Source: a virus. From it: DNA of 41,081 nt. The stretch covers positions 1-41,081 of the IMG/VR virus record IMGVR_UViG_3300032116_000486. One strand, 5' to 3'. Of this stretch, positions 25,809-28,119 are shown one piece after another. A model generated the notes under the pieces. That model was not told the DNA's origin and made no database searches. It was given only the letters and a program-made list of their open reading frames with translations. The translations under genes and the position numbers were made by a program. Within the stretch, counting starts at the first letter, position 1. Every line of letters starts with the position of its first letter.

Positions 25809-26106
25809 GATTGGTAGATGCAGTAACACGCTTGTTGTGGTTCGACACCTTGATCGCGGTGCACAGCACCACGGCCGGCCACGTCAGCAGGATCGACAGG
25901 CCCAGGGTGAACACGGCCAGGACGACGGACGACAGCAGCCACAGCGTGCCCCACAGCCCACCGGCGTAGAACGCGCCCAGCGGGCCGAAGAACAACGTCA
26001 ACAGCGTCGCGGCCGCAACCGACTTCGGGGGCTGCTGGACGACCACGACCACCGGCCCAGTGGGGGCGGCGGGGCGTTCGCGGTAGACGGGGACGATGTC
26101 AGACAT
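25804..26106 (-). CDS. TM2-like membrane protein
   Basis: A 100-residue protein, first in the leftward operon, with GAGAGAGGAA before the ATG. A Pro/Val-rich N-terminus (VPVYRERPAAPTGPVVVVVQ) is followed by two membrane helices (about 30-55 and 58-88), with GPLGAFYAGGLWGTLWLL resembling the TM2-domain motif. Prophage-expressed membrane proteins of this size often alter the host envelope or block superinfection, but that role is untested here. The stop codon overlaps operator copy 2. Confidence 0.58.
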   Translation of the reverse strand: MSDIVPVYRERPAAPTGPVVVVVQQPPKSVAAATLLTLFFGPLGAFYAGGLWGTLWLLSSVVLAVFTLGLSILLTWPAVVLCTAIKVSNHNKRVTASTNL

Positions 26107-26129
26107 TGGGGTTCCTCTCTCTTGGCTGA

Positions 26130-26145
26130 TGTAGAAGAGCCTACA
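26130..26145 (-). promoter_or_regulatory. operator copy 1 (TGTAG-N6-CTACA) in the leftward promoter
   Basis: On the - strand, -35 TTGGAC (26162-26167), an 18-base spacer and -10 TAGGCT (26138-26143) form a good sigma-70-type promoter reading into the leftward operon. The palindrome covers the -10 box. A regulator bound here would repress the operon. Confidence 0.62.
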
Positions 26146-26184
26146 CCATGTCTGGGCAGATGTCCAAATCGGGGCGCCAGCCCC

Positions 26185-26213
26185 ATGTCAGACCCTTGCC
26201 CTACCCTGGGAAC
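26185..26213 (+). promoter_or_regulatory. leaderless promoter of the DUF3263-like gene
   Basis: TACCCT at 26202-26207 is followed by exactly six bases and then the ATG at 26214, so transcription would start at or next to the A of ATG. The 11-base element ATGTCAGACCC (26185-26195) lies in the spacer, as in the promoter at 27736. No good -35 is visible, so an activator may be needed. Confidence 0.55.
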
Positions 26214-26447
26214 ATGAACGACAACGACAAGGCGATCCTCGACTTCGCCGCCCGGACCTACCGCTACCCCGGCGCGCAAGCCGAAGCCATCACCACCGAA
26301 CTCGACATGCGGCCCACCCGCTACTGGCAGCGCCTCAACCACCTGCTGGACGACCCGCAGGCGCTCGCCTACGCGCCCACCACGGTCAACCGCTACCGGC
26401 GGCTACGCGACCGCGCGCACCGCAGCCAGCGCAGCATCATCATCTGA
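26214..26447 (+). CDS. DUF3263-like protein
   Basis: A 77-residue basic protein. ILDFAARTYRYPGAQAEAIT, then MRPTRYWQRLNHLLDDPQAL and TVNRYRRLRDRAHR, match the DUF3263 family of small actinobacterial proteins, which look like HTH DNA-binding proteins. It is probably made from a leaderless mRNA. It faces the integrase gene and overlaps its end by 45 bases in the opposite direction, so the two transcripts may interfere. A role in the lysogeny choice is inferred from position. Confidence 0.68.
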   Translation: MNDNDKAILDFAARTYRYPGAQAEAITTELDMRPTRYWQRLNHLLDDPQALAYAPTTVNRYRRLRDRAHRSQRSIII

Positions 26448-27302
26448 CGCCACATACACCATCGTCGTGGACACCGACACGTGCCCCAGCAACTGGCGCA
26501 CCACCATGATGTCCTTCGTCGCCGCATACACCCGCGTCGCGAACCCATGCCGCAACGAATGCGTCGAATGCCCTTGCGGCAGAACGGCTTTCACCCGCGC
26601 ATCCACGTAGTCCGGTGACACATGCTCACCCGGCCGCGCCGGCGACGGAAACAACCAGCCCGTGAACTCCTTCAGGTGGGGGGCCAGCGACGCATTGATC
26701 GGCACGACCCGATCCTTCGCCCCCTTGCCGTGCACGACCAGCCGGTCCCCACGCACATCATCACCATGCACCTGCGCGATCTCCGACAGGCGCAGGCCCG
26801 CGTGATAGCCGAGGGCCAGCATCGCCCGCGTCTGCCGGTCAGCGCGCCCATACGCCTGCTGGTACGCGTCGTCGGGCAGCGGCTTCGGCACCCCAGGGCT
26901 GGCACGGACAGGGCGCAGCCCGACCGTCGGGTCCACGTCCACGCGACCCGTGCGATGCGCCCAGCCGTAGAACGAGCGGAACGCCGCCTGCATCGACTTG
27001 CGCGTGTTCGGCGACCGGCCGCGCGCACCCAGGTACGCGACCAGGGTGTCCTCCGTCTGGTCGGCCAGCGGCCCCGTCACCGACAGCGACGCCAACTGGT
27101 AGCGGCGCAGCCGCACGGTCTTCGGTGACGCGGACGTGGCGAGCCACGCGCACCAGTCGCTAATGAGTTGCCGATCCACCTTCGTCCCCGCGATGTCAGC
27201 CAGCACCAGACCCCCGCGATCTGAAGCTCCGGCGGGAACCGTACACGGTGACGGGTTGGGGAGCGGTGACGGGTTGGGGAGCGCGACAAGATGACGCGCC
27301 AT
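26403..27302 (-). CDS. int: tyrosine integrase
   Basis: A site-specific recombinase that would integrate the phage into a host tRNA gene. I take the ATG at 27302, giving 299 residues, one base after the repressor stop; longer in-frame starts would read through the tRNA-like sequence. The N-terminus has a tandem PNPSPL repeat. An N-terminal SAM-like core-binding domain covers about 40-125. Catalytic residues are visible: Arg171 (HAGLRLSEI), Lys193 (GKGAKDRVV), His248-Arg251 (HSLRHGFATR), His274 (LLGHVSVSTT) and Tyr283. It has no promoter of its own and must be translated from the repressor mRNA. Confidence 0.9.
   Translation of the reverse strand: MARHLVALPNPSPLPNPSPCTVPAGASDRGGLVLADIAGTKVDRQLISDWCAWLATSASPKTVRLRRYQLASLSVTGPLADQTEDTLVAYLGARGRSPNTRKSMQAAFRSFYGWAHRTGRVDVDPTVGLRPVRASPGVPKPLPDDAYQQAYGRADRQTRAMLALGYHAGLRLSEIAQVHGDDVRGDRLVVHGKGAKDRVVPINASLAPHLKEFTGWLFPSPARPGEHVSPDYVDARVKAVLPQGHSTHSLRHGFATRVYAATKDIMVVRQLLGHVSVSTTMVYVASDDDAALAAVRAVA
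27246..27281. repeat. 18-bp perfect tandem repeat near attP
   Basis: Two adjacent identical 18-base units (27246-27263, 27264-27281) in the integrase start region, encoding PNPSPL twice. They lie 55-90 bases from the tRNA-like core, a distance at which arm-type integrase sites occur. Confidence 0.75.
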
Positions 27303-27303
27303 G

Positions 27304-27648
27304 TCAGGCGGCTTCGGCCAGCCAGTAACCCGACCCGTAATCGAAGGGTTCGTGGTTCGAGTCCACGTGGGGGAGCGCAGTGCCCGGCCCCGGTGTGTCA
27401 TCACTGGGGTCGGGCATTCCTGTTTCTAGCCAAGCGAAATCGACGCCTGTCGCCATTGCGATGAGCCGCAGGTAGGACGACTTCAACTTCGTCGTCGCGC
27501 CGGATTCGTAGTTGCTGATCGTGTTGCGTCCGATGCCGGTCAGGTCGGCGAGTTGCCCTTGATCCAGGGCGGCGTCCTCACGCGCCATACGGATCCGTCG
27601 TGCCGCGGTAAGTGCGGGGATGTGCCGGCCCGTGGGCTGAGTTGTCAT
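27304..27648 (-). CDS. HTH repressor with attP inside its 3' end
   Basis: A 114-residue protein with a Cro/CI-type helix-turn-helix at about 28-60 (LDQGQLADLTGIGRNTISNY). After residue about 90 the reading frame crosses a tRNA 3'-half on the other strand (LPHVDSNHEPFDYGSG), and the protein ends YWLAEAA, a small-hydrophobic ending like ssrA-type degradation tags. This matches the known mycobacteriophage integration-dependent immunity design. The free-phage protein would be unstable, and integration would replace its tail with host-encoded residues. mRNA from TAACTT-N6-ATG is probably leaderless. Repressor function and instability are inferences. Confidence 0.8.
   Translation of the reverse strand: MTTQPTGRHIPALTAARRIRMAREDAALDQGQLADLTGIGRNTISNYESGATTKLKSSYLRLIAMATGVDFAWLETGMPDPSDDTPGPGTALPHVDSNHEPFDYGSGYWLAEAA
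27336..27375 (+). other. attP core: 3' half of a tRNA gene
   Basis: The + strand shows CGTAA then TCGAA (end of an anticodon loop and stem), a variable loop GGGTT, a perfect T-arm (CGTGG at 27351-27355, loop TTCGAGT, CCACG at 27363-27367), acceptor strand TGGGGGA (27368-27374) and one further base. The upstream half is not tRNA-like, so this is a tRNA fragment carried as the crossover core. The anticodon position reads CGT, which would mean tRNA-Thr, but this is uncertain. Confidence 0.82.
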
Positions 27649-27654
27649 GTGTCC

Positions 27655-27683
27655 AAGTTACGTCACAACTGGGCAAGTAGCAA
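27655..27683 (-). promoter_or_regulatory. leaderless repressor promoter with inverted repeat
   Basis: On the - strand, -35 TTGCTA (27678-27683), a 17-base spacer, -10 TAACTT (27655-27660), then six bases and the ATG at 27648. An imperfect inverted repeat, CCAAGTT-N7-AACTGGG (27653-27673), covers the -10 box and would suit autoregulation. Confidence 0.65.
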
Positions 27684-27735
27684 CACACCACCAAAACTAG
27701 GCACGCCCAAATCACGACACGCCGGGCGTAGGTAC

Positions 27736-27771
27736 TTGACCAATGTCAGACCCATTCCCTAACTTGTGCAC
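27736..27771 (+). promoter_or_regulatory. leaderless promoter of the excisionase/Cro-like gene
   Basis: -35 TTGACC (27736-27741), an 18-base spacer holding ATGTCAGACCC (27743-27753), -10 TAACTT (27760-27765), then six bases and ATG at 27772. The spacing places the transcript start at the A of ATG. It diverges from the repressor promoter about 50 bases away. Confidence 0.7.
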
Positions 27772-27957
27772 ATGCCCAAGACCGACACCCCACTCTCCAG
27801 CGCCCAAGTCGCTGAGATCCTCGGCTGCGACGTACGCACCGTCAACCGCCGCGCCGGCGCAGGCGACATCCCCTACCTCCTGAAGATGCCCGGCAAGACC
27901 GGCGCCTACGTCTTCCTCGCAGGGGACATCGAGCGCATCCGCAAGCGCGCCGCATAG
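27772..27957 (+). CDS. excisionase/Cro-like DNA-binding protein
   Basis: A 61-residue protein with an HTH_17/MerR-type fold (LSSAQVAEILGCDVRTVNRR, then GDIPYLLKMPGKTGAYVFLA). It is the first rightward gene opposite the repressor. Such proteins act as excisionase or as the lytic Cro-like switch. I prefer the ATG at 27772 to the GTG at 27766 because the promoter points to a leaderless start there. A block of hairpins follows. Confidence 0.72.
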   Translation: MPKTDTPLSSAQVAEILGCDVRTVNRRAGAGDIPYLLKMPGKTGAYVFLAGDIERIRKRAA

Positions 27958-27960
27958 ACA

Positions 27961-28064
27961 CCGGCGGCTGCACGGCTCCCCCGTGGCCGCAGCCGCCGGC
28001 GACCCCCTCCGGGGTCACGTTGGTCCCGTCCCGTGACCGGGGAAGGCGCGGGGCGGGACCAACG
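27961..28064 (+). terminator. three-hairpin structured region
   Basis: Three hairpins in a row: 27961-27971 with 27989-27999 (11 bp, inner ACGG/CCGT extension), 28001-28006 with 28011-28016 (6 bp, loop CTCC), and 28018-28033 with 28049-28064 (16 bp, one wobble, 15-base loop). No U-runs follow. It could be an early terminator needing antitermination, or a structured RNA. No gene fits here. Confidence 0.6.
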
Positions 28065-28119
28065 CCCAGCACCACCACCCTCCCCAAACCCTCCCCCACC
28101 GCAAGAGAGGAACACCCGC

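Follow-up and report, generated by a model that had tools for sequence, protein, structure and literature searches.

The locus described here raises the question of how an immunity repressor can be encoded across a phage attachment site, and what becomes of the protein once the phage integrates there. It was found in a viral genome of 41,081 nt (IMG/VR record IMGVR_UViG_3300032116_000486; the whole stretch of DNA analysed is called the window). The combined evidence indicates that the locus is very probably an integration-dependent immunity switch aimed at the tRNA-Asn gene of the host. Its features are listed in table 1.

Table 1. Features of the immunity region, in window coordinates.
Feature	Position	Strand	Basis or remark
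Immunity repressor gene, virion form, 114 aa	27648→27304	-	ORF; Pfam HTH_3, E=2e-11
Terminator-like hairpin in repressor linker codons, 3 bases past the tRNA 3' end	27379..27418	+	Terminator scan; 17 pairs
attP common core, tRNA-Asn positions 36-73 (3' half), 38 bp, over repressor codons 92-104	27338..27375	+	
Repressor codon 104, TAC (Tyr)	27337..27339	-	Its third base, 27337, lies just beyond the core
C-terminal segment predicted to be lost on integration, YGSGYWLAEAA, probably an ssrA-like degradation tag	27307..27339	-	-AA end
Tyrosine integrase, 299 aa	26403..27302	-	PF00589 (Phage_integrase), E=1e-20
Divergent small HTH protein (HTH_17), in the place of BPs gp34 (Cro-like/RDF-like)	27772..27957	+	Pfam match
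Candidate control segment ahead of the divergent HTH gene	27740..27787	+	Putative function

The repressor gene lies directly upstream of the integrase gene and is co-directional with it. Its product contains an XRE-type HTH (residues 19-74), has homologues annotated as "immunity repressor", and is 33-47% identical to 11 relatives. The first-pass annotation had described a minus-strand HTH repressor of 114 residues ending in YWLAEAA, with the integrase ATG one base past its stop. Both points were confirmed by the ORF and the HTH_3 match: the protein ends in GYWLAEAA, and its stop codon TGA (27306-27304) is followed by a single C (27303) and then by the integrase ATG at 27302. The integrase is 35-42% identical to those of McGonagall, EricDab and the Angel/BPs group, and the order of repressor, core and integrase is common to the window, McGonagall, Angel, Cracklewink and others. 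The C-terminus of the integrase reads AAVRAVA, and integrases of relatives end in FAAVA, AAAA or LVA; AVA is only loosely tag-like. Within the N-terminal integrase codons (27246-27281) an 18-bp unit (CGGTGACGGGTTGGGGAG) occurs twice in tandem without a mismatch; it resembles the acceptor end of the tRNA (GTGGGGGAGCGC) in the attP core.

On the other side of the repressor gene, across an intergenic region of about 120 nt, lies the divergent HTH_17 gene, and divergent genes occupy the matching position in McGonagall, Angel and Coeur. The candidate control segment ahead of it has a second 48-nt copy (75% identical) at 26182-26229, which also precedes a plus-strand gene; the two segments read ATGTCAGACCC..CCCTA and are candidates for a shared promoter or operator. 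A search for sigma-70-like sites found none anywhere in 26100-28100, even where the repressor promoter must lie, and is a weak test of whether the integrase gene lacks a promoter of its own.

The left 25 kb of the window gave no megablast match to any phage record. A second viral contig (IMGVR_UViG_3300042691_035606) encodes a capsid identical to that of the window over 265 residues, so another metagenome record contains this phage or one nearly identical to it; the immunity region would not fit on that short contig. Between the terminase and portal genes (2071-2949) an ORF of 292 aa carries three zinc-knuckle-like repeats (PWPGVCL.CGQPGSP.Y), and is possibly a homing-endonuclease-like insertion.

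The end of the repressor gene overlaps the 3' half of a tRNA. On the plus strand this segment (27338-27375) reads TAATCGAAGGGTTCGTGGTTCGAGTCCACGTGGGGGAG and spans the end of the anticodon loop, the variable loop, the T arm, the acceptor and the discriminator G (G73). The presence of a tRNA 3' half within the gene had been noticed before and stands, while its extent, given then as 27336-27375 and codons about 92-105, is corrected to the 38 bp and codons listed in table 1. When the core was joined to a tRNA-Asn 5' half, ARAGORN returned a clean tRNA-Asn(gtt); the window by itself gave none. The nearest cellular tRNA found was a tRNA-Asn(GTT) with 3 mismatches in 38 to the core (locus L013), against 11-12 for examples of tRNA-Lys. 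Agreement with tRNA-Asn ends at position 35, where the phage has G (27337) instead of T. A tRNA-Thr(CGT), prompted by the phage letters CCCGTAA, was dropped, because phage and tRNA-Asn agree only from position 36 onwards, so that the earlier phage bases are not target tRNA, and the acceptor and discriminator fit Asn. By sequence, the target tRNA is tRNA-Asn.

The match is, by comparison with relatives, far beyond chance, since the tRNA segment occurs at an equal place and in the same reading frame (xDSNxxP) in known relatives and forms the duplicated att core in the prophages of six of them. The tRNA half could otherwise be a vestige or a coincidence, in a phage that integrates elsewhere or is not temperate. 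Such a reading would agree with the outcome of the search for a host attB. The first-pass annotation had proposed finding the host tRNA gene that shares the core bases, and the exact 38-39-bp core had no match in the viral contigs, all genome contigs, 397 phylum-wide genomes, a 188-genome family and 396 genomes of one order; the attB and the junctions of this phage are therefore unseen. It is nevertheless highly improbable, given that 38 bp of tRNA are present in the correct orientation, with T stem and acceptor strand intact, beside a complete tyrosine integrase and in the position used by experimentally studied relatives.

The consequence of integration at the tRNA-Asn core was read from the repressor frame, which runs antisense to the core as ...GAC TCG AAC CAC GAA CCC TTC GAT TA|. 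The base after TA| is C in the phage, giving TAC (Tyr104), and A in any tRNA-Asn host (T35 of the tRNA), giving a TAA stop in the anticodon loop. The predicted junction leaves tRNA-Asn intact, and the prophage repressor predicted in silico has 103 aa, ends in ...DSNHEPFD*, and has lost YGSGYWLAEAA. As a positive control, the same junction reading ended the BPs-type Angel repressor at residue 103, and the published active form of the BPs repressor is gp33-103 (PMC4557955).

It had been suggested earlier that the prophage frame reads on, antisense, through the 5' half of the host tRNA. A target tRNA lacking an in-frame stop would give an extended repressor of this kind, which is extremely unlikely here: the core is tRNA-Asn both by sequence and by its discriminator, TAA arises in the repressor frame from either anticodon, Asn (GUU) or Lys (NUU), with A37, and read-through was seen in none of six prophages with paired att sites. 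Translation of the junction frame, proposed as a check, was carried out in silico with the tRNA-Asn 5' half; it returned the 103-aa product and no extension. Since the first base beyond the core makes TAA in a tRNA-Asn or tRNA-Lys host, the prophage repressor would merely be shorter, without a host-encoded tail.

Natural prophages with related integrases were then compared. A first search with the window integrase led to a 38.4-kb prophage of Frigoribacterium sp. PhB160 (NZ_RKIE01000001.1), the integrase of which is 40% identical to that of the window. At its attL the tRNA-Asn(GTT) is intact and the repressor, of 111 aa, ends in ELDSNQQPAG*, with the TAA supplied by the anticodon loop; at its attR the detached tail ends in SKVRAA*, and the joined flanks gave one continuous frame. 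A second search, restricted to a single actinobacterial order, found related integrases in 29 genomes, and both att sites were located in five. These five further prophages lie at tRNA-Asn (17.4 kb) or tRNA-Lys (32.6, 48.7, 29.0 and 32.9 kb). The attL repressor stop falls at host anticodon-arm bases in each (TAA in four, TGA in one), and the attR tails end in RLAA, EEAA, AVAA, AVPA and RLAA. Taken together, the attL repressor ORF stops in the tRNA anticodon arm in 6/6 prophages (two at tRNA-Asn, four at tRNA-Lys) and the detached attR ends are -AA in five and -PA in one, counts which are descriptive because the relatives are not phylogenetically independent. The prophage-form repressors of three viral contigs (43-56% repressor identity) likewise stop, two with GLEPPTF* and one with DLNPQPAD*; the tRNA of the former is tRNA-Arg where the gene is whole, and the third contig has a Lys/Asn-type core. 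The anatomy of the locus and the six prophages thus strongly support the initial idea of a BPs-like switch, in which attP lies inside the repressor gene and integration both removes an AA-ending C-terminal segment, the probable tag, and separates the integrase gene from the repressor promoter.

Two further contigs are of note. In one (L032, G643:C52) the integrase lies near the contig end, with a tRNA-Asn-like core and a remnant DSNQQPLDYQ...WKEAA; the other att site is off the contig, and the junction codon follows the pattern GAT TAC, like that of the window. The other (G637:C1, L059-L061) carries three copies of one tRNA-Lys att core about 14.5 kb apart (int-oriented positions 510, 15019 and 29521), which suggests that a single tRNA gene holds a tandem pair of small prophages.

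The segment that integration would detach is likely, from its sequence, to be an ssrA-like degradation tag. The virion repressor ends in LAEAA, in which the AA is present and the canonical LAA is absent, and the tmRNA tags of seven actinobacterial genomes (the six prophage hosts and G309) all end in FALAA. This mismatch would suit a different explanation, namely that attP does truncate the repressor while YGSGYWLAEAA is no degradation signal, its loss having no effect or another one, e.g. on oligomerisation. That explanation is unlikely in view of the relatives, where five of the six remnants share a final AA although their tails are otherwise unrelated, as against an AA share of 2.7% among the dipeptides of the structural proteins of the window. 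Moreover, the published tags of integration-dependent systems are described as "LAA, or similar" (PMC9262239), and in BPs both repressor forms bind DNA similarly (PMC4557955), so that tail loss there acts otherwise, namely via degradation.

The linker codons of the repressor contain a terminator-like hairpin on the opposite strand, with a U-rich tail at 27419-27428. Its folding energy (dG -35.5) corresponds to a z of -6.0 against dinucleotide shuffles, and in 300 synonymous recodings of the peptide that stability was never reached. A strong hairpin was present at this position in 13 genes of an initial set of 15 (z -3.3 to -8.1) and was visible in 20 of 22 in an enlarged set, again as descriptive counts, which leave out JustASigh, Dmitri, Rem711 and NM241 (repressors without a tRNA T-loop motif). 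No hairpin follows the core in BPs-type Angel, and Gusanita has a core-like segment without a hairpin there. The synonymous test was less uniform, with z from -0.9 to -4.7 among the 20 hairpin genes; about 5% or more of the recodings reached the observed energy in McGonagall, SallySpecial, GMA5, GRU3, Emperor, Coeur, G613 and L021. When ranked among all 60-nt windows of their own locus, 12 of 21 sites fell in the top 2%, and EricDab, L021 and Angel were clearly not exceptional. In six Gordonia phages 14/14 stem pairs are kept in each sequence, with two positions changed on both sides (compensatory).

At attR the host's own post-tRNA hairpin was seen displaced in 5/5 prophages, and the core of the PhB160 prophage includes the host tRNA hairpin itself. 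In the relatives integration puts the terminator of the tRNA 17-49 kb away. For ICEKp1, displacement of the tRNA-Asn terminator on integration has been shown, with read-through (PMC13023037), and Cluster K phages have a terminator beside the attP core, with attP beside the integrase gene (PMC3203893). The hairpin may serve as a replacement terminator and as a shield against antisense transcription. On balance the data favour, with some reserve, the proposal that many integration-dependent repressor genes, this one included, carry a one-way terminator for the host tRNA, antisense in their linker codons and before the attP core, which replaces the displaced one and blocks antisense transcripts through the repressor in the lysogen. 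The open-access papers searched (the primary paper, Broussard 2013, not among them) yielded no account of such an element within an integration-dependent repressor gene, and the embedded, recurrent element is possibly new.

The locus shares several features with BPs and other Cluster G phages (gp33 repressor, gp32 integrase), i.e. a leftward repressor-integrase operon with a divergent gene upstream, and attP at the 3' end of the repressor gene within a tRNA 3' half. In both, a codon at the core edge receives as its third base the first host base past the core and so becomes a stop, Cys TGT becoming TGA in BPs (PMC9262239 section 9) and Tyr TAC becoming TAA in the window, and in both the prophage form has 103 aa. 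In contrast, BPs targets tRNA-Arg, the reading frame through the core differs, the lost tail has 33 residues in BPs and 11 in the window, and the repressors are about 33% identical; the BPs-type Angel also differs in having no hairpin after the core. The closest named isolated-phage relatives by integrase (39-42%) are the Gordonia Cluster CW phages (McGonagall, GMA5, GRU3), for which integration-dependent immunity into tRNA-Lys was predicted (PMC5559632). They share the core frame (DSNPEPAD in CW), a short tail ending in AA and the linker-codon hairpin, but differ in their tRNA-Lys target and their genomes of 16-18 kb. The PhB160 prophage agrees with the window in its tRNA-Asn target, core frame, TAA from the anticodon loop and AA-ending remnant, whereas its core is longer (70 bp), as is its lost tail (38 residues), and its integrase start lies about 225 bp from the core.

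In the proposed switch, a single leftward operon would yield both repressor and integrase before integration, and the 114-aa repressor of the free phage, with its probable degradation tag, would be subject to proteolysis. The integrase would then recombine the attP core within the repressor gene with the 3' half of a tRNA-Asn gene in the presumed host. At attL the tRNA would be rebuilt, and the host anticodon loop would change codon 104 from TAC to TAA. The resulting tagless repressor of 103 aa, presumably stable, would hold the prophage dormant. The integrase gene and the tag codons would be left at attR beside host DNA, without the repressor promoter. The opposite-facing hairpin, if active as a terminator, would probably end transcription of the tRNA and spare the repressor from antisense transcripts.

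With this unclassified actinobacterial phage, integration-dependent immunity would come to include a tRNA-Asn target. The six natural prophages show the supply of a stop codon by the anticodon arm of the host tRNA to be a shared principle. The locus also offers a practical sequence signature for finding integration-dependent switches. If the embedded terminator is real, about 80 bp would at once encode part of the repressor, form the tRNA 3' half, act as recombination core and terminate transcription, and this would explain how the lysogen maintains proper tRNA expression while keeping antisense transcription out of the repressor gene.
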